DNA from: Rhizobium sp. FY34
GTDB lineage: Bacteria > Pseudomonadota > Alphaproteobacteria > Rhizobiales > Rhizobiaceae
Direction: 5' to 3'
NCBI RefSeq assembly: GCF_005222845.1
Contig: NZ_STFZ01000018.1
Span: forward strand, 62,001 to 126,000
DNA length: 64,000 bases
The translations under genes were made by a program, and so were the position numbers. This document shows positions 2,689-15,380 of this stretch, one piece after another. The notes under the pieces were generated by a model, which did not search any database, was not told the DNA's origin, and saw nothing but the letters and a program-made list of their open reading frames with translations. Numbering within the stretch: the stretch's first letter is position 1; each line of letters starts with the position of its first letter.

Positions 2689-4191
2689 CTACAGGTTTAC
2701 CGCCCGTGCATCGTCGATAATGTCCAAGCCATCCACGCTACGCTTTGCCTTGATGAAGGCGTCGCCGATACCGATCAGTACCGGGTTCTCATAGCCGATC
2801 TCGGCCATGGCAGCGGGAAGGCCAGACAGCTCGCCCACCCAGCGGCGCTCGTCATGACGAGCAATGGCGCTGACGATGACGGCAGGTGTCGCGTGGCTCA
2901 TGCCGTGGCCGGTCAGCTTCTGCGTGATCGCAGCAGCCGTGCGACCACCCATGTAAAACACGGTGGTGACGCTTGGATCGGCAAGCTTCGACCAGTCGAG
3001 GTCGGAGGGAAGTTCGCCCTTGCGCGAATGGCCGGTGACGAAGCGCACCGATTGCGCATGGTCGCGATGCGTCAGCGACACGCCAAGCCGTGCGGCCATG
3101 GCGGTGGCGGAAGTGACGCCCGGCACGATTTCCACTGGAATGCCCTCGCGCTCCAGGCTCTCGATTTCCTCGCCGGCCCGCCCGAAGATCATCGGATCGC
3201 CGGATTTCAGCCGCACGACGCGCTTGCCGGCCTTGGCCAGCGTAATCATCGTGGCGTTGATATCTTCCTGCTTGCAGCTTTCGCGGCCGCCGCGCTTGCC
3301 CACCAGCATGCGCTTGGCTTCGCGGCGCGCCAGTTCCAGCACATCGGCGGATACCAGATCATCAAACAGGATCACATCTGCCGCCTGCAGCGCACGCACC
3401 GCCTTCAGGGTCAAAAGCTCGGCATCGCCGGGGCCTGCACCAACCAGCGTCACGCGGCCCATGCTGTCTTCGCCGGCGGCGCTGGCAATGCGATTGGCGT
3501 CATTCACCAGAACAGTGGCGATACCGTCTGCCGGGGCCTCGCGAAACACGCGGTCAACAAAACGCTCCCAGAAGCTGCGCCGCTCGGTGCCGGGCTTCAG
3601 TCGCTCGTTGATTGCCTCGCGGATCTCCTGGGCAATGCCGGCCCAGGCTTTCAGCGCTGGCGGCAGCAGGGTTTCGATGCGCCGGCGAATGGCCTGCGCC
3701 AGAATGGGGGCGGCGCCATCGGTGGAAATGGCTATGACGACCGGCGAACGGTTGACGATGGAACCGAACTGGAACTGGCAGAAGGCCGGCTTGTCGATGA
3801 CATTGACGGGCACGCCGGCAGCCTTTGCCGCGCAGTAAAATGCCTTGGCTTCCTCGTCCGTTTCGCAATCGCCCAGCGCCAGGGCGGCGTTTTCGAAAAT
3901 GCCGATATGCCAGGGGTGATCGTGGTGGATGATGGCCGGCTCCGGCTTTGCCGCCTGCTCAGCGATAAAGCCTTGCATGACCTCGCCCAGGTCATGCTGC
4001 GGACAGAAGACATGCACAGTTGCACCGCAGGCGACCAGCAGTTCGGCCTTCCAGGCCGCGCCATCGGAGCCGCCGGCCAGCACGGTGCGCTTGCCCTCCA
4101 GCCCGAAAAAGACCGGCAGTTTCGCCAGTGGCTCCATGCGGGCCGGCGTCGAGCGGCGCTTGTCACTCTGCAGCGGCTGCAAGGCTTCCAT
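2689..4191 (-). CDS. cysG: siroheme synthase (precorrin-2 dehydrogenase/ferrochelatase + uroporphyrinogen III methyltransferase)
   Basis: This makes siroheme, the cofactor of the NirB encoded upstream. The N-terminal part (about residues 18-200) is the SirC-like Rossmann domain for precorrin-2 oxidation and iron insertion; its dinucleotide loop reads AGGSDGAAWKAE, looser than the usual GGGxVAxRK. The C-terminal part from about residue 245 is the SAM uroporphyrinogen-III methyltransferase, starting VTLVGAGPGD and containing the RLKSGDP and PGVTSA motifs. I chose ATG at 4191 because an AGGGAG site lies about 8 bases upstream; it overlaps the nasA end by 29 bases, which suggests coupling. A second possible ATG is at 4137. 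Length is 500 aa. Confidence 0.9.
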   Translation of the reverse strand: MEALQPLQSDKRRSTPARMEPLAKLPVFFGLEGKRTVLAGGSDGAAWKAELLVACGATVHVFCPQHDLGEVMQGFIAEQAAKPEPAIIHHDHPWHIGIFENAALALGDCETDEEAKAFYCAAKAAGVPVNVIDKPAFCQFQFGSIVNRSPVVIAISTDGAAPILAQAIRRRIETLLPPALKAWAGIAQEIREAINERLKPGTERRSFWERFVDRVFREAPADGIATVLVNDANRIASAAGEDSMGRVTLVGAGPGDAELLTLKAVRALQAADVILFDDLVSADVLELARREAKRMLVGKRGGRESCKQEDINATMITLAKAGKRVVRLKSGDPMIFGRAGEEIESLEREGIPVEIVPGVTSATAMAARLGVSLTHRDHAQSVRFVTGHSRKGELPSDLDWSKLADPSVTTVFYMGGRTAAAITQKLTGHGMSHATPAVIVSAIARHDERRWVGELSGLPAAMAEIGYENPVLIGIGDAFIKAKRSVDGLDIIDDARAVNL

Positions 4192-6814
4192 CGATGATCT
4201 CCCTGATCTCTGCGCGGCAGGAGCCGCAATTCGTACCCGCACTCGTTTCCTTGCCGATCGCCTCGACGCTTGTGCATCCCCGGCCAATGGCGCCGAGGAT
4301 GTCATGCACGCCGACGCTCATGCAGGAGCAGACGATGGCGCCCTTGTCCGGCGCGCCTGCATCCGGCCGGCCAGCGGTTATGGCAAGGCGCTGGCGCCTG
4401 TCATCATGCGGGCGTGCAAGCTGCGACACTGCCCAATGGCGTGCCACTTCCACTGGTTCCTTCGCAAGGAATATTAGTGCCAAAAGCTGGCCCTTGTTGA
4501 AAAATGCCAGTCGCAGGCGCCCATTTGCCCCGTCATGATAGGCAATCGGCTCGATATCCGGCGCAATATGGAAGGTCTTGCGGCACCAGTCAGTCCAATC
4601 TTCCACCGGTTTGGCAAAGGCCAGTTCCAGTCGCCAGCCGCCATCGGCCTTGGCAAGCGCCCAGTAGTCTGCCTCGATATCGGTTGGCTTTTCGAAGCAG
4701 ACGGCAAAGCCATAGTGTTGCGCCCGAAATGGACGGGCCACAACGCGTGCCATCTTGGAGGCCGGCTGGCCGGAGACGGGATCGGTGCGCGCTGCAATGA
4801 CGGTACTGACGCGCGCATGGGATGCCGATTGTCCGGTCCAGTGAATGGGGGCAAACAGGCTGCCCACCGCCTGTCGCCGCGTAACCAGCGCCCGAAGTAC
4901 GGCGCGTCCATGCTGGCTTTCCACCTCGACCAGATCGGCAGGGCCTATATCAAGCGCTGCGGCATCCGCCGGGTGGATCTCGACATAGGGTTCGGCGATA
5001 TGGGCGGACAGTCTTGCGCTTTTGCCGGTGCGCGTCATCGTGTGCCAGTGATCGCGCACGCGCCCGGTGTTCAGCGTGAAGCGACCTGCCTCACCGGGTT
5101 GGGCGGGCATCCCCACCGCGATGAACCGCGCCTTGCCATCGCCATGGTAGAAACGACCCTGGGCGAAAAAACGGGTGTCCTTGCCCGTTTCGCTGCCTGG
5201 CTGCGGCCATTGCATGGGCAAAAGCGCGTCATAGGTCTCAATGCTCAAGCCCGACATTCCGCCGATATCGAAATCACGGGTTCCGTCATTCTCGAAGGCG
5301 GAAAGGGCTGCATGTTCGGCAAAAATGGCGCCGGCATCCGCAAAACCGAAGGCATTGGCATATCCCATGCGCCGGGCCACTTCGCGAAACTGCCACCAGT
5401 CGGCGCGGGCTTCGCCGGGAGCTGTGAGGAACGCCCGCTGGCGCGAGATGCGCCGTTCGGAATTGGTGACTGTGCCGTCCTTTTCGCCCCAGCCAAGCGA
5501 GGGCAGCAGCACATGCGCATGTTTCGTCGTATCGGTCTCGGCCATGATGTCGGACACGACGACGAAGGGGCAGGCGGCAAGCGCTGCCGCCACGCCATCG
5601 GCCTGCGGCAAGGAGACGACCGGATTGGTCGCCATGATCCAGATTGCCTTGATGCGCCCATCAGATACGGCACGGAACATATCGACGGCCTTCAGGCCCG
5701 ATTTTTCTGCGATGCGGGGGGAGGCCCAGAAGCGCTGCACGCGGTCGCGATGCGCGGGGTTCTCGATATCCATATGGGCGGCCAGCATATTGGCAAGCCC
5801 GCCGACCTCGCGCCCGCCCATGGCATTCGGCTGGCCGGTCAGTGAAAACGGCCCCATGCCGGGGCGCCCGATGCGCCCTGTCGCCAGATGACAGTTGATG
5901 ATGGCATTCACCTTGTCTGTGCCGCTTTGTGACTGGTTGACGCCCTGGCTGTAGCAGGTCACCGTCTTTTCCGTCGTCTCGAACAGCCGGAAGAAATCCC
6001 GCAACTGCATGGCCGGCAGACCGGTTGCCTCCATCAGGTCGGCGAGTGTCAGCGCCGACGCCTTGTCGAAGGCATCGGCAAAACCCAGAGTATGGGCGCC
6101 TATATAGTTTTCGTCGATCCGTCCGGCTTTCACCAGATGCGCTAGAAGCCCCATGAACAGCGCCACATCGCCATCCGGGCGTATGGCCAGATGCAGGTCG
6201 GCGATATCGCAGGTCATGGTGCGGCGAGGGTCGATCACCACCACTTTCATGCTGGGTCGCGCCTGTTTGGCCGCTGCCAGCCGCTGGTAGATCACCGGAT
6301 GGCACCAGGCGAGATTGGAGCCGGCAAGGATCACCAGATCGGCAAGCTCGATATCCTCATAGGTGCCCGGCACGGTATCTGCCCCGAAGGCACGCCTGTG
6401 ACCTGCAACCGAAGACGACATGCAAAGTCTTGAATTCGTGTCGATATTGGCGGAACCGACAAAGCCCTTCATCAGCTTGTTGGCGATGTAATAGTCTTCC
6501 GTCAGGATCTGGCCGGAGACATAGAAGGCCACCGAATCCGGCCCGTGCTCGGCAATCGTCTCAGAAAAACGCTGTGCTACGAGATCGAGCGCTCTATCCC
6601 ATTCCACTGTCTCGCCTGCGATCTGAGGCGCAAGCAACCGGCCGTCGAAATCAAGCGTTTCGGCAAGCGCCGAGCCTTTGGAACAGAGCCTGCCGAAATT
6701 GGCCGGATGATCCGGATCGCCCCGGACACTGACATGCCCATCGTCCTCAACCTTGGCAATCACGCCGCAGCCGACGCCGCAATAGGGGCAGGTGGTGCGC
6801 GTTTCAGCGGCCAT
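4163..6814 (-). CDS. nasA: assimilatory nitrate reductase, catalytic subunit
   Basis: This cytoplasmic Mo-bis-MGD enzyme (883 aa) reduces nitrate to nitrite. An N-terminal [4Fe-4S] motif uses Cys9, Cys12, Cys16 and Cys44. Cys131 in SRLCMSS matches the NapA/NasA molybdenum ligand. The C terminus carries an extra BFD-type [2Fe-2S] domain (IVCSCMSVGV ... GTNCGSC, about residues 825-870), which is common in the NasA forms that take electrons from NADH or ferredoxin partners. There is no TAT signal, as expected for an assimilatory enzyme. It lies between nirD and cysG in the nitrate operon. The gap to nirD holds a repeat pair (6842-7021). Confidence 0.95.
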   Translation of the reverse strand: MAAETRTTCPYCGVGCGVIAKVEDDGHVSVRGDPDHPANFGRLCSKGSALAETLDFDGRLLAPQIAGETVEWDRALDLVAQRFSETIAEHGPDSVAFYVSGQILTEDYYIANKLMKGFVGSANIDTNSRLCMSSSVAGHRRAFGADTVPGTYEDIELADLVILAGSNLAWCHPVIYQRLAAAKQARPSMKVVVIDPRRTMTCDIADLHLAIRPDGDVALFMGLLAHLVKAGRIDENYIGAHTLGFADAFDKASALTLADLMEATGLPAMQLRDFFRLFETTEKTVTCYSQGVNQSQSGTDKVNAIINCHLATGRIGRPGMGPFSLTGQPNAMGGREVGGLANMLAAHMDIENPAHRDRVQRFWASPRIAEKSGLKAVDMFRAVSDGRIKAIWIMATNPVVSLPQADGVAAALAACPFVVVSDIMAETDTTKHAHVLLPSLGWGEKDGTVTNSERRISRQRAFLTAPGEARADWWQFREVARRMGYANAFGFADAGAIFAEHAALSAFENDGTRDFDIGGMSGLSIETYDALLPMQWPQPGSETGKDTRFFAQGRFYHGDGKARFIAVGMPAQPGEAGRFTLNTGRVRDHWHTMTRTGKSARLSAHIAEPYVEIHPADAAALDIGPADLVEVESQHGRAVLRALVTRRQAVGSLFAPIHWTGQSASHARVSTVIAARTDPVSGQPASKMARVVARPFRAQHYGFAVCFEKPTDIEADYWALAKADGGWRLELAFAKPVEDWTDWCRKTFHIAPDIEPIAYHDGANGRLRLAFFNKGQLLALIFLAKEPVEVARHWAVSQLARPHDDRRQRLAITAGRPDAGAPDKGAIVCSCMSVGVHDILGAIGRGCTSVEAIGKETSAGTNCGSCRAEIREIIDGSLAAAAE

Positions 6815-6841
6815 GGGTGACCTCGGATGTCACCGAAGCGA

Positions 6842-7021
6842 TACCCCCCTCTGCCCTGCCGGGCATCTCCCCCTCAAGGGGGGAGATCGACTTGTGTCGG
6901 CTGTCATAATCCCTGGTCACCGTCTGAGCGAGGTGCACCCACGACCAATGAGGATCGATGAACGAGCCACAACCGATCTCCCCCCTTGAGGGGGAGATGC
7001 CTGGCAAGGCAGAGGGGGGTA
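6842..7021. repeat. pair of 48-bp inverted repeats (rhizobial palindromic intergenic element)
   Basis: The arms at 6842-6889 and 6974-7021 match at 46 of 48 positions in inverted orientation, with 84 bp between them. Each arm holds two small hairpins. The first reads GCCCTGCCGGGC in one arm and GCCTTGCCAGGC in the other once oriented alike; the second is built on CTCCCC/GGGGAG around CTCAAG. The two mismatches form one base pair of the first hairpin, so they compensate. The element fills the nirD-nasA gap within the operon. GC-rich units of this kind are frequent between genes in Rhizobiales. Confidence 0.8.
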
Positions 7022-7040
7022 AACAAGCGAACATCGGTCT

Positions 7041-7373
7041 CTACTCCGCCGCGACCAAAAGTTGATCTTCCAGCAGGATCGACAGCTGGCCGTTGTCGTT
7101 GCGCAGCGCAATGGTGCGCACTTCGCCCTCATCCGCGCCCTGTGCCTTGCCGGTTTCCAGCGAAATCACCCAGTTGTGCAGTGGGCAGGTGACGGAGGCG
7201 CCGTGCACAATGCCTTCCGACAGCGGGCCGCCTTTATGCGGACAGCGGTTTTCGATGGCATAGACCTCGTTTTCGCTGGTTCTGAACACGGCGATGGTCA
7301 CGCCCGGCGTTTTCACGCATCGCGCGCCGCGCAGCGGAATGTCGTTGATGTGGCCGATGTCTGTCCAGTTCAT
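7041..7373 (-). CDS. nirD: nitrite reductase small subunit (Rieske-type)
   Basis: This 110-aa partner of NirB has an intact Rieske-type [2Fe-2S] motif: CPHKG around residues 43-47 and CPLHNW around 63-68. Many enterobacterial NirD proteins have lost these ligands, so a bound cluster is likely here. The start at 7373 follows AGGAGAAGC at good spacing; the longer open frame to 7418 lacks such a site. It follows nirB in the same direction, after a 196-bp gap full of GC-rich repeats, and precedes nasA. Confidence 0.92.
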   Translation of the reverse strand: MNWTDIGHINDIPLRGARCVKTPGVTIAVFRTSENEVYAIENRCPHKGGPLSEGIVHGASVTCPLHNWVISLETGKAQGADEGEVRTIALRNDNGQLSILLEDQLLVAAE

Positions 7374-7394
7374 GGAATGCTTCTCCTGGTTGAA

Positions 7395-7565
7395 GACCCC
7401 TCCCCAACCCCTCCCCACAGGGGGGAGGGGCTAAGCTGCCGAACCGTCACGGGTAAAATGAAGCGGTGCTGCAATGTGTCTCCCCCCCCTTGTGGAGGGG
7501 TCCGAAGGAAGGGTCGAGACGAGTGGCTAGACCCAACAGGCCGGCAGGCCAGAGGGGGTATTGCT
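7395..7565. repeat. GC-rich palindromic intergenic element between nirB and nirD
   Basis: CCCCTCCCC (7408-7416) pairs perfectly with GGGGAGGGG (7422-7430) around a 5-base loop. A second C-run/G-run pair lies near 7484-7501. The far end, GGCAGGCCAGAGGGGGTA (about 7543-7560), resembles the end of the 6842-7021 repeats. It looks like a related repeat unit lodged inside the operon. No reading frame here is credible. Confidence 0.55.
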
Positions 7566-7569
7566 TTGG

Positions 7570-10038
7570 TTACTCCGCTGCCTCGCCATAGCCCACGGTC
7601 GCCATCGGCTTGAACTCGTGCTTGTCCTTGCCCGAAACACGCTCGGACCAGGGGTCCACCTGGGCGAATGTTTGGGAAAAGACGAAGCGCTCGTAATAGG
7701 CTCGGCGCTTGGTCGTATCGGTCATGATCTGGCGGCGGATCTCGTCATGGCCGATGCGTTTTGCCCATTTGTAGATGCGCTCCAGATAGCGGCCCTGTTC
7801 GCGGTACATCTGGGTGAGTGCCACGATATGCTCCAGTGCCTCGTCCTCTGTCTTGACGAGACCCAGAACATCGGTGCCCTTGATGTCGAGGCCGGCGGCG
7901 CCGGCAAAATGGATTTCGAAGCCGGAATCCACGCAGATGACGCCGATATCCTTGCACGTCGCTTCGGCGCAGTTGCGCGGACAGCCCGAAACGGCAAGCT
8001 TCAGCTTGGCCGGTGTCCAGGAACCCCACATGAATTTCTCGATGCGGATGCCAAGACCGGTCGAATCCTGCGTGCCAAACCGGCACCAGTCGGAACCGAC
8101 GCAGGTTTTCACCGTGCGCAACCCCTTGGCATAGGCCTGGCCGGAGATGAAACCCGCCTTGCCGAGATCGGCCCAGACGGCGGGCAGATCCTCCTTCTCG
8201 ATTCCGAGAAGATCGATGCGCTGGCCGCCGGTCACCTTCACCATCGGAATTTCGAACTTGTCCACCACATCGGCAATGGCGCGCAGTTCGGCGGCATTGG
8301 TCACGCCGCCCCACATGCGCGGCACGACGGAGTAGGTGCCGTCCTTCTGGATATTGGCGTGCACGCGCTCGTTGATATAGCGGGACTGGTAGTCGTCGGC
8401 ATATTCATCCGGGAAATCGCAGACGAGGTAGTAATTCAGCGCCGGTCGGCACTTGGCGCAGCCGCAGGAGGTTTTCCATTCCAGTTCCTGCATGACGGCG
8501 GGAATGGTTTTCAGCCCCTTGGCCTTGATCAACCGGCGCACATCATCATGGCCAAGCTCGGTGCAGGTGCACATCGGGGTGACGGCTGCGGGATTGTAGC
8601 TATCGCCCAGCGTCAGAACCATCAGCTGCTCGACAAGGCCGGTGCAGGAACCGCAGGAGGCGGACGCCTTGGTATGGGCACGCACTTCGTCCAGCGAGGT
8701 CAGCCCCTTGGCCGTGATGGTGGACGTGATCTTGCCCTTGCAGACGCCGTTGCAGCCGCAGATTTCCGCATCATCCGGCAAGGCTGCAACGGCCGCCATA
8801 GGGTCCAGCGGAGACCCTCCCTGGTAGGACTGGCCGAAAATCAGGGTATCGCGCATCTGCGAAATATCGGTTCCCTTTTTCTTCAGGTCGTTGAACCACG
8901 CGCCATCGCTGGTTTCGCCGTACAGCACGGTGCCGATGATGCGGTTGTCCTTCAACACCAGACGCTTGTAGATGCCGGCGGAGGCGTCGCGCAGAACAAT
9001 CTCCTCGCGGTCCGGCGCTTCGGCAAAATCGCCCAGCGAATAGAGGTCGATGCCGGTGACCTTCAGCTTGGTCGGCGTATCGGAATGCTTGAAGGCTGGG
9101 CTCTTGTCGCCGGCCAGATGTGCTGCGGCAATGCGGGCCATTTCATAGAGCGGCGCCACAAGGCCATAGACCTGACCACCCACTTCGGCGCATTCACCCA
9201 GCGCCATGATATGACCATCCGAGGTCAGCATGCCATCATCCACGACAATGCCGCGATTGATGGCAAGGCCGGCGTCCCTTGCCAGCTGGGTGCTGGGGCG
9301 GATGCCGACGGCCATGACGACGATGGAGGCGGGGATGATGCGACCGTCATCCAGCTCGACACCTTCCACGCGGTCCGTGCCGAGAACGGCTTTCGTATTG
9401 CCCTTGCAGACAACATTGATGCCGCGATCCTCCAGTGCCTTTTGCAGCAGATAGCCGGCAGCCGGATCAAGCTGGCGCTCCATCAGCGTCGGCATCACAT
9501 GCAGCACGGTGACATTCATGCCGCGTGCCTTCAGCCCGGCTGCGGCCTCAAGGCCCAGCAGCCCGCCGCCGATGACGATGGCATCTCCTCCCATCTCGGC
9601 TGCGGCAAGCATGGCGCCGACATCATCCAGATCGCGATAGGCGACAACGCCTGGCAGATCATGGCCGGGTACGGGAATGATGAAGGGCGTGGAACCGGTG
9701 GCAATTACCAGCCGGTCATAATGGGCAGTGATGCCGCTTTGCGACGTGACGGTGCGGTTGGCGCGGTCGATCGAGACGATCTTTTCGCCGCGATGCAGCG
9801 TCACGCCATGCGTTTCATACCAGGCATCGCCATGGATGATGATGTCCTCGTAGGTCTTTTCGCCGGATAGGACCGGCGAGAGCATGATGCGGTCATAGTT
9901 GACGCGCGGTTCGGCGTTGAAAATGGTCACTTCGAACTGGCCGGGTGCCAGTTCGAACAGATGTTCCAGCATGCGCCCCGGCGCCATGCCATTGCCGATG
10001 ATGACGAGTTTTTCGCCTCTTGCCTCTGACATGGCCAT
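7570..10038 (-). CDS. nirB: NAD(P)H-dependent nitrite reductase, large subunit
   Basis: This 822-aa cytoplasmic enzyme reduces nitrite to ammonium. In order it has an FAD/NAD Rossmann domain (VIIGNGMAPGR near the N terminus), two BFD-like [2Fe-2S] modules (CGCNGVC ... SCGSC and CTCTELG ... CGCAKC), and a siroheme-[4Fe-4S] domain with CVGSDWC and SGCPRNC. The ATG at 10038 shares one base with the TAA stop of the upstream ATP-binding gene (TAATG), so translation is probably coupled; a longer frame reaches to 10101 but is unlikely. It depends on CysG for siroheme. Confidence 0.96.
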   Translation of the reverse strand: MAMSEARGEKLVIIGNGMAPGRMLEHLFELAPGQFEVTIFNAEPRVNYDRIMLSPVLSGEKTYEDIIIHGDAWYETHGVTLHRGEKIVSIDRANRTVTSQSGITAHYDRLVIATGSTPFIIPVPGHDLPGVVAYRDLDDVGAMLAAAEMGGDAIVIGGGLLGLEAAAGLKARGMNVTVLHVMPTLMERQLDPAAGYLLQKALEDRGINVVCKGNTKAVLGTDRVEGVELDDGRIIPASIVVMAVGIRPSTQLARDAGLAINRGIVVDDGMLTSDGHIMALGECAEVGGQVYGLVAPLYEMARIAAAHLAGDKSPAFKHSDTPTKLKVTGIDLYSLGDFAEAPDREEIVLRDASAGIYKRLVLKDNRIIGTVLYGETSDGAWFNDLKKKGTDISQMRDTLIFGQSYQGGSPLDPMAAVAALPDDAEICGCNGVCKGKITSTITAKGLTSLDEVRAHTKASASCGSCTGLVEQLMVLTLGDSYNPAAVTPMCTCTELGHDDVRRLIKAKGLKTIPAVMQELEWKTSCGCAKCRPALNYYLVCDFPDEYADDYQSRYINERVHANIQKDGTYSVVPRMWGGVTNAAELRAIADVVDKFEIPMVKVTGGQRIDLLGIEKEDLPAVWADLGKAGFISGQAYAKGLRTVKTCVGSDWCRFGTQDSTGLGIRIEKFMWGSWTPAKLKLAVSGCPRNCAEATCKDIGVICVDSGFEIHFAGAAGLDIKGTDVLGLVKTEDEALEHIVALTQMYREQGRYLERIYKWAKRIGHDEIRRQIMTDTTKRRAYYERFVFSQTFAQVDPWSERVSGKDKHEFKPMATVGYGEAAE

Positions 10039-10838
10039 TACTCCGCCGCTTCCACGAAGCGATGACGCTCGTAGAGGAATTTCAACACGGCCTCGCGGCA
10101 CTTGAGGTAAGTGCGGTCGGAGGCCAGCTCGATGCGGTTGCGCGGGCGCGGGATCGGCACATCCAGCACTTCGCCGATTTTTGCCGCCGGGCCATTGGTC
10201 ATCATGACGATGCGGTCGGAAAGCAGCACGGCCTCATCCACATCATGGGTGATCATGATCATCGTGTTGCCGAGCCGTGCATGGATTTCCATCACAGCGT
10301 CCTGCAAATGGGCGCGGGTGAGCGCATCCAGCGCGCCGAAGGGCTCGTCGAGCAGCAAAACCTTCGGTTCCATGGAGAGCGCACGGGCAATGCCGACGCG
10401 CTGCTTCATGCCGCCGGAGATTTCGGCAGGGCGCTTGTCTCTCGCATGGGCCATCTGCACCAGATCGAGGTTTTCCATCACCCAGTCATGCCGTTCCGAC
10501 CGGCTCTTCTTGCCGCGAAACACTTTGGAGACGGCCAGATCGATGTTTTCGTAGACGGTGAGCCAAGGCAGAAGCGAATGGTTCTGGAATACCACGGCGC
10601 GTTCCGGGCCGGGTGCATCCACATGCTTGCCATCCAGAAACACCGCGCCGGATGTGACGTCGATCAGGCCGGCGATGATGTTGAGAACGGTGGATTTTCC
10701 GCAGCCGGAATGGCCGATGATGGAGACGAACTCACCCTTGTCGACGCCGAGCGAAACCTGTTTCAGCACTTCGCTTTTCGTGCCGTTGCGCTCAAAGGTC
10801 TTGTCGATGAATTCCAGCGAAAGATAGGATTGTGCCAT
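10038..10838 (-). CDS. nrtD: nitrate/nitrite ABC transporter, ATP-binding protein
   Basis: This 266-aa ATPase has Walker A GHSGCGKST, signature ISGGMKQR and Walker B VLLLDEPFGALD, all intact. It is short, like NrtD, and lacks the NrtA-like C-terminal sensor domain of cyanobacterial NrtC. The start at 10838 follows GAGGAG. It lies 11 bp after the permease gene and runs into nirB through a TAATG junction. Confidence 0.9.
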   Translation of the reverse strand: MAQSYLSLEFIDKTFERNGTKSEVLKQVSLGVDKGEFVSIIGHSGCGKSTVLNIIAGLIDVTSGAVFLDGKHVDAPGPERAVVFQNHSLLPWLTVYENIDLAVSKVFRGKKSRSERHDWVMENLDLVQMAHARDKRPAEISGGMKQRVGIARALSMEPKVLLLDEPFGALDALTRAHLQDAVMEIHARLGNTMIMITHDVDEAVLLSDRIVMMTNGPAAKIGEVLDVPIPRPRNRIELASDRTYLKCREAVLKFLYERHRFVEAAE

Positions 10839-10849
10839 GCTAACTCTCC

Positions 10850-11746
10850 TCAAGCGTTCGCGGTGCCGCGGGTGATAAGGCGCCCGATGAGGGCGATGAA
10901 GCGGTCAAGGAAGAAGCCGACCACGCCGACATAGATGAGCGCGACGATGATGTCGCTGATCAGCGAGGAGTTCCACGCATCCCAGATGAAGAAGCCGATG
11001 CCGACGCCACCGATCAGCATTTCGGCCGCCACGATGGCCAGCCAGGAGAGGCCGATGCCGATGCGAAGGCCGGTGAAGATGTAAGGAGCAGCAGCCGGCA
11101 GCATGATCTTGGCGAAATATTCAAAACCGTTGAGGCGCAGGACCTTGGCGACATTCTGGTAATCCTGCGGGATATTGCGGATGCCGACGGCGGTGTTGAT
11201 GATGATCGGCCAGATGGCGGTGATGAAGATCACGAAAATGGCCGATGGCGTGCCATCGCGGAAGGCAGCGAGCGACAAAGGCAGCCAGGCAAGCGGCGGC
11301 ACCGTGCGCAGAACCTGGAAGATCGGGTCAAGGCCGCGCATGGCCCATTGGCTCTGGCCCACCAGAACGCCAAGCGCGACGCCGGCAATCACGGCCAGGG
11401 CGTAACCGATGGCGACGCGCTGGATACTGGCGAAGATATGCCAGAACATGCCCTGGTCCGTGCCCTGTCCGACATAGAAGGGGTGGATGATCAGCTCCCA
11501 GCTTTCCTCAAGCACGCGCGACGGCGCCGGCAGGCTGGAGGTTGGCGACGAACAGAGCACCTGCCACAGCAGAAGCATCAGCGCCAGCGTGACAAGCGGC
11601 GGCAGAAGATTGGCCATCAAAGCGCGGCCATGCTGCAGAAGGCGTGCGATCTTCGGTGTCGCCGGCTTTTGCGGCGTGAAAGCCACCACGCGGGCGCTGC
11701 CTGCCGGTTTCTGATCGTCCTTGATGTTGAGCTGGGTGACGGACAT
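10850..11746 (-). CDS. nrtB: nitrate/nitrite ABC transporter, permease
   Basis: This 298-aa inner-membrane protein has a cytoplasmic N tail and about six hydrophobic segments. The ABC permease EAA-like loop is visible in the stretch EYFAKIMLPAAAPYI, near residue 210. The start at 11746 is preceded by AGGAGA; the open frame extends to 11806 without a site. It is the second gene of the nrtA-nrtB-nrtD set. Confidence 0.9.
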   Translation of the reverse strand: MSVTQLNIKDDQKPAGSARVVAFTPQKPATPKIARLLQHGRALMANLLPPLVTLALMLLLWQVLCSSPTSSLPAPSRVLEESWELIIHPFYVGQGTDQGMFWHIFASIQRVAIGYALAVIAGVALGVLVGQSQWAMRGLDPIFQVLRTVPPLAWLPLSLAAFRDGTPSAIFVIFITAIWPIIINTAVGIRNIPQDYQNVAKVLRLNGFEYFAKIMLPAAAPYIFTGLRIGIGLSWLAIVAAEMLIGGVGIGFFIWDAWNSSLISDIIVALIYVGVVGFFLDRFIALIGRLITRGTANA

Positions 11747-11820
11747 GGCCGCTCTCCTTTGTCGATGGTCGGATGCCGGGCGGCACACCGATTGCGTGCC
11801 GCCCACGGTCGCCGAGGGGT

Positions 11821-13110
11821 TCAGGCCATGCGGGTGATGCTGAGGCTCTTCAGGTAGGCTTCGGGGTCTTCCGGATCGAAGACCTTGCCGTCGAAGAAGG
11901 TTTCCTTGCCGCGCGAGGTGGAGGCGGGGAGGTCCGTCACGCCCAGTTCCTTGGCCGCTTCACGCCACAGATCCTCGCGGTTGACCTTGGAGACCAGTGC
12001 CTTCACGTCGAGGCGGTGCTCAAACTTGCCCCAGCGGATGTCTTCCGTGAGGAACCAGGTGTCGTGGCTCTTGTAGGGATAGGAGGCGTGATCGCGCCAG
12101 AACTTCATGAAATGCGGGCTGTCTGAAACAACCTTGCCATTGCCGTAATTGTATTCGCCCTTCAGGCGGTTGACGATGTCCTTGGAGGGAACGTTGAACC
12201 AGCTGCGCTTGCCGACGATATCGGCCAGCTCATCCTTGTTCTTCATGTCATCGCACCATTGCGCGGCTTCCAGCACCGCCATTAGCAGGGCCTTTGTCGC
12301 GCGCGGGTTTTTCTCCACCCAGTCGGCGCGCATGCCGAGTGATTTTTCCGGATGCTTTGCCCAGATTTCCGCCGTGTTGGCAGCCGTATAGCCGATGCCC
12401 TGGTTAACCAGCTGTTCGTTCCACGGCTCACCGACGCAGAAACAGTCCATGGTGCCAACCTTCATATTGGCCACCATCTGCGGCGGCGGCACGACGATGG
12501 TTTCCACGTCCCTGTCGGGGTCGATGCCGCCGGCGGCCAGCCAGTAGCGGATCCACAGATCATGCGTGCCACCGGGGAAGGTCATGGCCACCTTTGCGGG
12601 GCTGCCAGCGGCCTTCTTCTTGGCGAAGGCGTCCTTCAGCGCGCCGGAATCCAGACCGACTTTCAGGTCGGCATAGGCGGAACCGACCGAGATCGCCTGC
12701 GCATCGAGGTTGAGGCGGGCGAGGATCACCATGGGCAGCGGCTGGTTGTTCTGCGTCACCTTGCCGGTCGAGATGAGGTAGGGCATCGGCGTCAGGATAT
12801 GTGCGCCATCAATACCGGAGCCGGCCGAGCCAAGCACGAGATTATCGCGCGTCGTGCCCCAGGATGCCTGCTTGACCACTTCGACATCTGGCATGCCGTA
12901 TTTTGCGAAAAGCCCCTTTTCCTTGGCGACAATCAGCGGTGCGCTGTCGGTCAAGGCAATGAAGCCGAGAACGGCCTTGGTGGTTTCCGGGCCCGCCCCT
13001 TGAGCAAAGGCGCCGGAGGGAAATGCGGCCTTTGCTGCGCCAACCAATGCGGCTGTCGCGGAGGTTTTCAACAGGCTGCGCCGGCTGATGCTGGAAATGA
13101 TCTTGGTCAT
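11821..13110 (-). CDS. nrtA: nitrate ABC transporter, periplasmic substrate-binding protein
   Basis: This 429-aa nitrate binder starts at 13110 after AGGGGAA. The N terminus carries a twin-arginine signal, SRRSLLK, followed by a hydrophobic stretch and an AFA-Q type cleavage region, so it is likely exported folded. The body has the NrtA/NasS signatures YWLAAGGIDPDRDVE and FCVGEPWN. It is the first gene of the structural operon and sits behind a sigma-54 promoter and a structured 180-nt leader (13111-13290). Confidence 0.93.
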   Translation of the reverse strand: MTKIISSISRRSLLKTSATAALVGAAKAAFPSGAFAQGAGPETTKAVLGFIALTDSAPLIVAKEKGLFAKYGMPDVEVVKQASWGTTRDNLVLGSAGSGIDGAHILTPMPYLISTGKVTQNNQPLPMVILARLNLDAQAISVGSAYADLKVGLDSGALKDAFAKKKAAGSPAKVAMTFPGGTHDLWIRYWLAAGGIDPDRDVETIVVPPPQMVANMKVGTMDCFCVGEPWNEQLVNQGIGYTAANTAEIWAKHPEKSLGMRADWVEKNPRATKALLMAVLEAAQWCDDMKNKDELADIVGKRSWFNVPSKDIVNRLKGEYNYGNGKVVSDSPHFMKFWRDHASYPYKSHDTWFLTEDIRWGKFEHRLDVKALVSKVNREDLWREAAKELGVTDLPASTSRGKETFFDGKVFDPEDPEAYLKSLSITRMA

Positions 13111-13152
13111 GCGCAGGTTCCCCTTTTGCGTCTTTGACGGAAATTCAGGCAC

Positions 13153-13197
13153 AAAAAAACGCCGCTCGGAGATTGCGTCTTCGGAAAAGCCTCTAGG
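13153..13197 (-). terminator. possible leader terminator before nrtA
   Basis: On the minus strand a run of seven T (13160-13153) follows AAGACGC ... GCGTTTT, a 7-bp helix with one G-U pair. A second weak element, AGCC-CTAGA-GGCT plus T4, lies just upstream at 13200-13185. Either could be the stop signal that NasT overcomes. The helices are modest. Confidence 0.4.
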
Positions 13198-13224
13198 GCT
13201 CAGTCCGGACTGCAAAAACCTTAC

Positions 13225-13290
13225 GACGTCGATGTCTTTGAAGAACGCTATCGCGCGTTCCAAATGCGCTGGTCGCCATTGACCTGCACA
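13225..13290 (-). ncRNA. ANTAR-type (NasT target) leader hairpins upstream of nrtA
   Basis: Read on the minus strand, 13290-13265 folds into a hairpin: a 5-bp lower helix, an A-A mismatch, a 4-bp upper helix (GGTC/GACC) and the six-base loop AATGGC. The loop has A at position 1 and G at position 4, the ANTAR target signature. It is followed directly by a second strong hairpin, 13264-13237 (GAACGC/GCGTTC plus TTTG/CAAA), with hexaloop GCGATA. Next comes a weak third stem with loop ATCGAC (13236-13225), which again has A1 and G4. The adjacent nasT encodes the expected ANTAR protein. Confidence 0.65.
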
Positions 13291-13300
13291 AGGCTACTAA

Positions 13301-13317
13301 AGCAAACGCTATGCCAG
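13301..13317 (-). promoter_or_regulatory. sigma-54 promoter of the nitrate operon
   Basis: The minus strand reads CTGGCATAGCGTTTGCT, a close match to TGGCAC-N5-TTGCW, with GG and GC exactly 12 bases apart. The predicted start, 12 bases on, is about 13290, the first base of the leader hairpin. This fits nitrogen control by NtrC, but I could not identify a convincing NtrC dyad in 13318-13471. That stretch otherwise shows only AT-rich tracts and a weak CACAG/CTGTG dyad near 13384-13402. Confidence 0.7.
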
Positions 13318-13471: not shown

Positions 13472-14746
13472 TCAGGTTTCATCCGGAGCCGGCGCCAAGG
13501 CAAGGCCGGCATGTACCGGAAAGCCCGCCACATAGTCCGACAACCGTGTCGGATCGAACACATATCCGTCCATGAAGCGGTCGTCATCGTCTGCGCCTTC
13601 GATGCGCAAATCTCCGTCGTCCGGCATATCGGCAAGGGAGAGGGCGGCGCGATAAAGATCCGGTCGGTAGGCGGATGCCGCAGCCTTTGCGCCGGCTTCT
13701 GACGCGTGTGCCTGTCCCCAGCGGATCATCTGGGAATAGATCCACAGTGCCTTGGACGGGCGCGGATAGTTGGCATGATCTTCGTGGAAGGTGAAATAGC
13801 GGTCGATCACGCGCCGATTGCCACGTGCATCGAGGTTGAACTCGCCGGACAGGACATGGCGGATAATGTGCACGGGGGCTGCGATATAGCGTTGCTCGGC
13901 CAGCAGCTGCGCCAGCGCATCGTGGTTTTCCGGCCGGTCGCACCAGCGCGCGGCGGCATCCAGCGCAACGATGAGGCGCGAAACGGTGTCCGGATGGCGT
14001 TCGGCCCAGTCCGGTCGCATGCCGATCACCTTTTCAGGTGCGGACGGCCAGATATCCTGCTTGGCCGCGACAATGCGCCCGACGCCGCGTTCGGAGGCGA
14101 CCATGTTCCAGGGCGCCCCGACGCAAAAACCGTCAATGGCGCCGGCGGCCAGGGCATCGGAGGTGAGCGGCGGCGGCACCACCACCAGTTTCACATCGCG
14201 ATCCGGATCGATGCCGCCGGCTGCCAGCCAGTAGCGGAACTCATAATTGTGCGAGGAAAACGGATAGGTCATGCCCAATGTCGGCGCCGGTTCACCGGCC
14301 TCGCGCATGGCATTCAACACAAGGGCGAGCGCTCGCGCGTTTTCGAGCGCGGTCCCGGTTTCGGCAAGGCCTGCCACGTCCTGCATGCGGGCAAACAGCC
14401 GTGTGGACAGCGTGATGGCATTGCCGCCGCGGCCAAGCGAAAAGGGCGTGATGGTGGGAGACGGGTTGGAGCCGAGACCGAGCATGGAGGCCACTGGCAT
14501 GGGCGACAGCATATGCGCGATGTCGAACTGGCGAAAGGCCAGCCGGTCGCGCACATTGGCCCAGGATACGTCTTTTACGAGGTCCAGCGTCAGGCCCTCG
14601 CGGGCGGCAAAGCCGAATTCGGCAGCCGCAATCAGGATGGAAGCATCGACCAGCGGGATGAAGCCGGCACGCAGCAGCTTTGGTCCTTCACCTGCCACAC
14701 GGGCGGGTGCGGACAAGGGGCCACCCGTCTCTGCTGTCGCCATCAT
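13472..14746 (-). CDS. nasS: nitrate-responsive regulator, NrtA-like, cytoplasmic
   Basis: This 424-aa protein shares the NrtA signatures (YWLAAGGIDPDRDVK, FCVGAPWN) but has no signal peptide, which is the hallmark of NasS. In known NasST systems NasS holds NasT inactive until nitrate or nitrite binds. I chose ATG at 14746, six bases after AGGA; a GTG two codons earlier (14752) is also open. It follows nasT by 46 bp. Confidence 0.9.
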   Translation of the reverse strand: MMATAETGGPLSAPARVAGEGPKLLRAGFIPLVDASILIAAAEFGFAAREGLTLDLVKDVSWANVRDRLAFRQFDIAHMLSPMPVASMLGLGSNPSPTITPFSLGRGGNAITLSTRLFARMQDVAGLAETGTALENARALALVLNAMREAGEPAPTLGMTYPFSSHNYEFRYWLAAGGIDPDRDVKLVVVPPPLTSDALAAGAIDGFCVGAPWNMVASERGVGRIVAAKQDIWPSAPEKVIGMRPDWAERHPDTVSRLIVALDAAARWCDRPENHDALAQLLAEQRYIAAPVHIIRHVLSGEFNLDARGNRRVIDRYFTFHEDHANYPRPSKALWIYSQMIRWGQAHASEAGAKAAASAYRPDLYRAALSLADMPDDGDLRIEGADDDDRFMDGYVFDPTRLSDYVAGFPVHAGLALAPAPDET

Positions 14747-14792
14747 ATCCACTCCTGTCCTCTCCGGCCTGCCGCATATGCACTCTTGCGCA

Positions 14793-15380
14793 TCACATCA
14801 GCAGCCCTGCAGCCGTGACCACGCTCTGGGCGATCTCGGACATCTTCTTTTTTTCATTCATGGCCGTCTGGCGCAGCAGTCCGAAGGCATCTTCCTCAGA
14901 CAGGCCGCGCATTTTCATCAAAATGCCCTTGGCGCGTTCGATGACCTTGCGGTCTTCCAGCGCCGAGCGCGCATCCGCCAGTTCCCGTTGCAGGCGGCTG
15001 AAGGCATTGAAGCGCGACACCGTCATGTCGAGGATCGGCTTTACCCGCTCCTTCTTCAGTCCGTCGACGATATAGGCGGATACGCCCGCCTCGACAGCGG
15101 CTTCGATCGAGGCGGTATCGGAGCGATCGACGAACATGGCAATCGGGCGCGATACGGCGCGCGTCAACTGGAACAGGTGTTCCATCATGTCGCGATTGGG
15201 ATTTTCGATATCGATGATGATGACATCCGGCCGTAGCGTGTCGATGATGCGTGCCACGCCATTCACCTCGTGAATGACGGTCACCCGGTGATGCCCGGCC
15301 TCGCGCAAGCCTTCCTCGATGATGGAGGCGCGGATTGCGTTCTCATCGAGGACAAGGATGGTGAGGTCACTGTGCAGCAT
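14793..15380 (-). CDS. nasT: ANTAR-domain response regulator/antiterminator
   Basis: This 195-aa protein has an N-terminal receiver-like domain (LVLDENAIRAS, then IIIDIENP with the Asp at the acceptor site) and a C-terminal ANTAR RNA-binding domain (ERAKGILMKMRGLSE ... about residues 130-190). In the NasST model it binds hairpins in the nas leader and prevents termination when released by NasS. The target leader is at 13225-13290. The ATG at 15380 fits family length but lacks a clear ribosome site. It is divergent from a LacI gene. Confidence 0.92.
   Translation of the reverse strand: MLHSDLTILVLDENAIRASIIEEGLREAGHHRVTVIHEVNGVARIIDTLRPDVIIIDIENPNRDMMEHLFQLTRAVSRPIAMFVDRSDTASIEAAVEAGVSAYIVDGLKKERVKPILDMTVSRFNAFSRLQRELADARSALEDRKVIERAKGILMKMRGLSEEDAFGLLRQTAMNEKKKMSEIAQSVVTAAGLLM

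Follow-up and report, generated by a model that had tools for sequence, protein, structure and literature searches.

How one short leader could join nitrogen status and the presence of nitrate in the control of nitrate uptake, and why its hairpins do not all follow the loop rule expected of such a leader, is the question raised by the nrtA locus of Rhizobium sp. FY34, which was analysed within a DNA stretch of 64,000 nt, referred to here as the window. A preliminary description of this DNA had proposed that a near-consensus sigma-54 promoter feeds straight into a leader of the ANTAR target type, and had pointed out as unusual that a strong second hairpin (loop GCGATA) breaks the A1/G4 hexaloop rule (AnnGnn), while a weak third one (loop ATCGAC) keeps it.

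Organisation of the locus and anatomy of the leader

The features of the locus are listed in Table 1. On the minus strand, the order from 5' to 3' is promoter, hairpin 1, hairpin 2, hairpin 3, terminator, U7 tract and nrtA, whose ATG lies at 13110; according to the ORFs of the window, the gap between the nasS-like gene and nrtA measures 361 nt. The earlier assignment of NasT and NasS to the neighbouring genes agrees with the annotation, which places both upstream of the leader. NasT is the single match to the ANTAR domain PF03861 in its own genome (E <= 0.001), so that the ANTAR protein expected with such a leader is present, and the gene between it and the leader encodes a paralogue of NrtA, which we take to be NasS on account of its position and this paralogy.

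Table 1. Features of the nrtA locus in the window (positions of the window).
Feature	Position	Strand	Description	Basis
Sigma-54-type promoter (-24/-12)	13301..13316	-	TGGCATAGCGTTTGCT	One mismatch to TGGCACNNNNNTTGCW; conserved site in relatives; inside Rfam narK match
Predicted transcription start	13289..13291	-	Approximately 13290	Predicted from -12 spacing
Hairpin 1 (P1)	13265..13290	-	GGTC[AATGGC]GACC; loop 13275-13280, A1/G4; outer stem 13290/13265; likely recognition hairpin	Fold; alignment
Hairpin 2	13242..13261	-	GGAACGC[GCGATA]GCGTTCT; loop 13249-13254, not A1/G4; putative folded spacer	Fold; helix in relatives
Hairpin 3 (P2)	13225..13236	-	GAC[ATCGAC]GTC; loop 13228-13233, A1/G4; putative antiterminator	Fold; conserved motif
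Intrinsic terminator stem	13158..13230	-	5' arm GACGTCGT (13230-13223), overlapping hairpin 3; 3' arm GCGGCGTT (13165-13158)	
U7 tract of terminator	13153..13159	-		Sequence
nrtA-like gene	11821..13110	-	Nitrate-binding protein, first gene behind leader	Tat-like start; SsuA family below cut-off; context with nrtB/nrtC
nrtB and nrtC	10038..11806	-		TIGR01183, TIGR01184 over NCBIfam cut-off
nirB, nirD and assimilatory nitrate reductase-like gene	4163..10101	-		TIGR02374, TIGR02378 over cut-off; reductase best matches below cut-off, named by context
nasS-like gene	13472..14752	-	Putative nitrate sensor, NrtA paralogue	Below cut-off
nasT	14793..15380	-	Response-regulator-like with ANTAR domain	PF03861, 79 bits; start codon choice uncertain

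Folding of the 152-nt leader with RNAfold gave hairpins 1 and 2 together with the terminator (-59.2 kcal/mol; relative to dinucleotide shuffles, z = -4.25), and shorter pieces of the leader folded less strikingly (z from -0.99 to -2.65). The hexaloop AATGGC of hairpin 1, which had been recognised as an A1/G4 loop, was recovered in the fold, and the loop and its closing C:G pair are conserved in the alignment described below. The folds also agree with the remark on the second and third hairpins, as hairpin 3 by itself is worth -0.7 kcal/mol and forms when the folded piece excludes the terminator. Its weakness is explained by a feature that had escaped the preliminary description: the loop of hairpin 3 already contains the start of the terminator's 5' arm (13223-13230), so that the two structures compete. 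The terminator is worth -32.7 kcal/mol, and its 3' arm sits directly before the T run that had been noted ahead of nrtA. In the window stretch, the minimum free energy (MFE) is -58.0 kcal/mol with the terminator and -47.4 kcal/mol with hairpin 3 enforced. Since G4 of the hairpin-3 loop and the 3' arm of hairpin 3 are common to both structures, a protein holding hairpin 3 would block the terminator.

The promoter

By pattern alone the promoter box does not rise above chance, as the window contains 49 sites with at most two mismatches against 40.75 expected, and a sigma-54-type promoter is accepted here because of its conservation across loci. For the comparison, loci were picked solely on the similarity of their NrtA protein; the top 80 of 544 confirmed relatives were taken, which together with the window make 81. 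The hairpin-3 motif GACAnnGnCGTC, i.e., GAC[AnnGAC]GTC, was found upstream of nrtA in 53 of these, and the remaining 28 show other layouts. A GG-N10-GC site lies 77-89 nt before the motif in 49 of the 53 motif-bearing loci; it is absent from L026, L030 and L034 (Aurantimonadaceae) and from L089 (Microvirga). The window site has the GG-N10-GC core, the TGGCAC/TTGC context and the same fixed place, so that the near-consensus site reported earlier is upheld. NtrC-like sites upstream of the promoter show only a slight excess, with a mean best score of 8.52 against 8.01 in shuffled sequences, out of 11 (n = 48).

The three Aurantimonadaceae leaders keep the hexaloops without the sigma-54 box and share the upstream element TTTGGACTTT(T)CAAA; promoter and leader therefore look separable. 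Another variant occurs in twelve Bradyrhizobium nrtA loci (L036, L038, L039, L041, L046, L052, L066, L068, L071, L074, L079, L085), which have in common a TTGGCA...TTGAA box, where GA takes the place of the GC at -12. Behind it comes GACGCC[AnnGnn]GCCGTC, a hexaloop hairpin whose C.C mismatch is constant.

Hairpins 1 and 3 as the likely recognition pair

Promoter, an A1/G4 loop 1 and hairpin 3 recur at nearly fixed spacing in the relatives chosen by NrtA only. An A1/G4 hexaloop closed by at least 3 bp stands 39-53 nt before hairpin 3 in 52 of the 53 motif loci, of which 51 were found by script and one (L089) lies at 39 nt, just outside the script filter. The exception, L080, carries AACGAA as the loop at this position, on a stem that contains a mismatch. 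Leaders from these loci and 14 further ones, with one duplicate removed, provided a set of 64 distinct leaders; these were selected for A1/G4 in both loops, so that the invariance of the loops in this set is partly by construction and 52/53 is the figure unselected for loop 1. In the alignment of the 64 leaders, loops 1 and 3 and their closing pairs are conserved, and the whole-structure covariation score was reached by none of 500 shuffles (MAFFT alignment). Covariance in related leaders, which had been suggested as a check, was found for the outer stem of hairpin 1 and for five of six hairpin-2 pairs and was not found for hairpin 3, whose three pairs never vary; its pairing thus rests on conservation, loop pattern and position.

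A terminator helix of at least 8 bp, located directly before the T run and starting in the hairpin-3 loop, is present in 63 of the 64 leaders, with the start at loop position 4 in 50 and at position 3 in 13; in L026, the sole exception, no T5 run lies within range. The leader hence possesses two A1/G4 hexaloop hairpins, the second of which is mutually exclusive with an intrinsic terminator. The targets of EutV are reported to have a second hairpin overlapping the terminator in the same way (PMC3369931, PMC7496416). As this overlap is the classical arrangement of an ANTAR antiterminator, hairpins 1 and 3 are likely the recognition pair of NasT.

Association with NasT and a second leader architecture

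A covariance model of the three hairpins (R1), built without promoter and terminator, was searched in 297 genomes of the family and matched 69 of them at E <= 0.01 and 60 at E <= 1e-3. NasT (E <= 1e-20) occurs in 68 of the former and in all 60 of the latter, compared with 151 of the 297 genomes overall (Fisher p ~1e-21, uncorrected for kinship and with training sequences among the matches). Of the 64 best R1 matches, 57 lie within 5 kb of nasT. Among the seven distant ones, the genes at four (L123, L130, L131, L145) were read; there, a window-type leader is found on a contig different from that of nasT. The idea that such extra copies control other operons was dropped, as each of the four precedes an NrtA-like gene.

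No R1 match at E <= 1e-3 was obtained in 91 NasT-positive genomes of the family. The stretch behind nasT was read in 90 of them (G097 was left out) using a script that demanded two A1/G4 hexaloops, one over a terminator and the other 14-62 nt farther upstream, i.e., the loops were set by rule and the distance was free. This sister type of leader was detected in 74 genomes, and in 16 the script found no leader. The partner hexaloop is located 18-24 nt upstream (loop to loop) in all 74, none of which has a distant partner only. A typical pair reads GCGTCC[AAnGnn]GGGCGC, a few nucleotides, and GGC[AAAGCT]GCC. A further hairpin near the predicted start is common and mostly bears a small non-A1/G4 loop; with hairpin 3 enforced, 71 of the 74 leaders form at least three hairpins, and in five (L188, L193, L205, L242, L201) the first is also A1/G4. 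The sigma-54 pattern was found in 47 of the 74, a count that misses variants visible in several others (e.g., GTGC at -12). From their sequences, both groups can be understood as three-hairpin modules, with the antiterminator loop on hairpin 3 and its partner on hairpin 1 in the window type or on hairpin 2 in the sister type.

In L201, and similarly in L271, both located behind nasS, a window-type hairpin 1, a hairpin-2-like stem and an eroded hairpin 3 are followed by a complete adjacent A1/G4 pair and a terminator; these leaders resemble an intermediate between the two architectures. The genome G194 holds such a hybrid leader (L271) beside its single NasT match, which is 91% identical to that of the window, and a window-type leader (L274) on another contig; a single NasT thus seems able to read either geometry. 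Two further loci fetched for the same question (L272, L273) gave no leader by the sister script.

The intervening hairpin

Measured from the inner 3-4 bp of hairpin 1, the gap to hairpin 3 spans 32-43 nt in the 64 leaders. RNAalifold applied to the MAFFT alignment showed hairpins 1 and 3 and did not predict hairpin 2, which we ascribe to MAFFT not keeping hairpin 2 in register; it was therefore measured in each sequence against shuffles, and on named alignment columns. A gapless helix of at least 6 bp is present in the gap of 52 of the 64 leaders, where 100 mononucleotide shuffles gave 6.7 on average and never more than 12; one of at least 7 bp occurs in 35 leaders against 2.1. If the 3' arms are exchanged between sequences, pairing of the four inner positions, which is 100% by construction, falls to 55% on average and to 69% at most (61 leaders with a helix of at least 4 bp). 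Five of six aligned pairs show changes on both sides and 77% of the cells are paired; the leaders are related sequences, so that none of these counts represents independent events. Compared with dinucleotide shuffles, the linker folds only modestly better (mean z of -1.5 over the 64, -1.2 in the window). The stem is thus kept with compensatory changes, while the loop drifts in sequence and in size (3-9 nt, most often 7), which makes the hexaloop size in the window incidental. The 3' end of hairpin 2 lies 5 nt before hairpin 3 in 32 of 61 leaders and 4-7 nt before it in 53.

Counted from the outer end of hairpin 1, the raw distance to hairpin 3 has a median of 28 nt, of which a median of 7 nt stay unpaired after folding (58 of the 64 leaders; the other six were left out because hairpin 1 or 3 was missing from their fold), and exactly one hairpin occupies the gap in 57 of the 58. 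In the window, the linker measures 34 nt from the 4-bp core of hairpin 1 and 28 nt from its outer stem, and 3 + 5 = 8 nt are unpaired once hairpin 2 folds. Unfolded, it is longer than the short linkers reported for ANTAR targets: those of EutV leaders have 5-12 nt, and lengthening to 14 nt drastically cut induction (PMC3369931); 20 added nucleotides abolished antitermination in vitro (PMC8934654); and a survey of ANTAR targets allowed 2-25 nt (PMC8164766). Based on these limits and on the shortening of the gap by folding, we infer that hairpin 2 may serve as a folded spacer and so hold hairpins 1 and 3 near each other. Of all the steps in our reading this one is the weakest, and we would give it about an even chance. 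NasR and EutV are reported to be able to bind single hairpins (PMC7496416, PMC8934654), so that a strict spacing may not hold for NasT. With a spacer, the discrepancy between the hairpins would be accounted for, as hairpins 1 and 3 likely form the pair, hairpin 3 is weak in competition with the terminator, and hairpin 2 would be free to drift in its loop.

The best of the other explanations, although we regard it as rather unlikely, is that hairpin 2 is a relic of an ancestral leader with A1/G4 loops on all three hairpins, that it lost its loop identity in this clade and now has no specific role, and that NasT binds hairpins 1 and 3 independently or sequentially, as has been proposed for EutV (PMC8934654). 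Leaders with three consecutive A1/G4 hexaloops, one stem mismatch allowed, do exist (the Xanthobacteraceae-type nrtA leaders L042, L053 and L072, and L040 from an unplaced Rhizobiales MAG), and the sister architecture carries the partner loop on the hairpin adjoining hairpin 3. The stem of a relic should decay, however, whereas that of hairpin 2 is maintained by compensatory changes and at a near-constant distance from hairpin 3. It is improbable that hairpin 2 is instead contacted by NasT in a non-canonical manner, by a second dimer or an oligomer, on a leader with three sites. Free NasT of Paracoccus is described to run as an oligomer of ~130 kDa (PMC3795266), and in six leaders (L033, L035, L037, L055, L057, L063) a 3-bp hairpin with the A1/G4 loop ATAGGC would be an alternative fold at this place; yet the MFE fold of hairpin 2 presents a canonical A1/G4 hexaloop in none of the 64 leaders, and A1 and G4 are reported to matter in the targets of EutV and NasR. 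Slightly less probable still is a role of hairpin 2 in transcriptional pausing, by which NasT would gain time to bind ahead of terminator synthesis: the location upstream of hairpin 3 would fit, but relatives differ in the bases that directly follow hairpin 2, and leaders of the narK type exist without it.

Returning to the folded spacer, a more general rule can be put forward, which we rate as somewhat short of an even bet: the NasT leader of the Hyphomicrobiales would be a three-hairpin module with its antiterminator on hairpin 3 and the partner loop on hairpin 1 in one group, to which the window belongs, and on hairpin 2 in another. Where hairpin 1 is the partner, the hairpin in between would serve as an RNA staple fixing the spacing for the NasT dimer; the known distance limit would then be satisfied by folding rather than by linker length, and a single NasT would read both forms. 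The 64 leaders with a hairpin in the gap and the 74 with an adjacent pair provide a natural test of an open point of ANTAR regulation, namely whether both hairpins must stand at a set distance.

Proposed mechanism and relation to known systems

The comparative evidence supports the initial proposal of a sigma-54-type promoter feeding a NasT leader, and we consider antitermination by NasT at this leader highly probable, apart from the role of the spacer. Under nitrogen limitation, sigma-54 RNA polymerase, presumably activated by NtrC, would start near 13290, and the transcript would fold hairpins 1 and 2. If nitrate is absent, NasS would hold NasT, and the nascent RNA would form the large terminator and stop at the U tract. 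If nitrate is present, NasS would release NasT, which would bind the A1/G4 hexaloops of hairpins 1 and 3, brought close by hairpin 2 as a folded spacer despite the ~28 nt between them. With hairpin 3 held, its loop base G4 and its 3' arm would be withdrawn from the terminator, and transcription would proceed into nrtABC and the genes behind.

The switch type itself is known. NasS-NasT and nitrate-released RNA binding are reported as established in Paracoccus, where NasT binds the nasA leader RNA (PMC3795266, PMC5424462), and NasT is described to act on the nosR leader in Bradyrhizobium (PMC6759348, PMC5424462). These leaders and that of Azotobacter nasAB share the NasS-NasT pair, the leader hairpins and termination with the window, but the available excerpts of these papers describe no hairpin between the two recognition hairpins. 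The joining of nitrogen status and nitrate on one leader is not unprecedented either, as the Klebsiella nas genes are reported to be controlled by the Ntr system jointly with ANTAR antitermination by NasR (PMC5424462). In the nasF leader, which also uses two hexaloop hairpins, NasR senses nitrate itself, a task that would fall to NasS here, and no spacer hairpin appears in the excerpts available. The EutV targets of the eut operons likewise have two A1/G4 hexaloops, the second overlapping the terminator; they differ in their short, length-sensitive linker compared with the folded one of the window, and their accessible descriptions mention no sigma-54 promoter, a type that the window leader has. 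What appears to be new is therefore that a third, conserved hairpin stands between two likely protein-binding hairpins. A 2019 paper on Sinorhizobium meliloti described the control of its nitrate assimilation genes as not known (PMC6616083); the present reading predicts how nitrate uptake would be switched in many rhizobia, agrobacteria and their relatives.

Similarity to the Rfam narK RNA

At the gathering threshold, Rfam gave no match to the leader. The best match, and the only one at E <= 10, was the narK RNA (RF03032), which covers 13223-13315 from end to end with one main insertion; at 26 bits (E 0.003 in a search of 241 bases), the match falls short of the gathering score of 43.2. The model contains GGCaCA...UUGCU, a hexaloop AACGGC and CGACAAAGACGUCGC. 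The two RNAs thus share a sigma-54-type box, a first hairpin (with the loop AACGGC in narK), then CGAC[AAAGAC]GTCG in narK, and a T run; in contrast to the window leader, the narK consensus has ~8 nt between the two hairpins and lacks hairpin 2. The Rfam consensus pairs the first hairpin only and leaves CGACAAAGACGUCG unpaired. Among the 297 family genomes, 59 match narK at E <= 0.05 and none reaches the gathering score. In the window's own genome, the window site is the best of 15 matches at E <= 10 (0.015, the others at least 0.27); 13 of 14 control genomes also have matches at E <= 10.

Across the phylum, 21 of 398 genomes match narK at E <= 1e-3, with a score above the cut-off in 16, and 20 of the 21 have a NasT match compared with 116 of the 398. 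The RNA lies within 5 kb of nasT for 24 of 35 matches and in 18 of the 20 genomes with both. In 30 narK loci, the script found an A1/G4 hexaloop closed by at least 3 bp at each of the two places in 23, or 22 because the second one of L174 is out of place, and did not show both in seven (eight with L174); a sigma-54-type box was present by pattern in 26 of the 30, and 28 have a run of at least four T behind. The narK RNA accordingly looks like a sigma-54 promoter with a NasT leader, and this would suggest what an Rfam family does whose name merely refers to a gene. Our literature search found no paper naming the narK RNA, the narK motif or RF03032; the original description, reportedly that of Weinberg in 2017, was outside that search and may propose the same reading. 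That the region is merely a constitutive terminator behind nasS with hexaloops arising by chance, as the strong stem and the upstream nasS might suggest, can hardly be credited, since the order of promoter, hairpin 1, hairpin 3 and terminator is repeated in dozens of loci chosen by NrtA only and the same layout is seen in narK RNAs that neighbour nasT in genomes of other classes. In the twenty-first narK genome (G496), an ANTAR match ends 174 nt before the RNA match.
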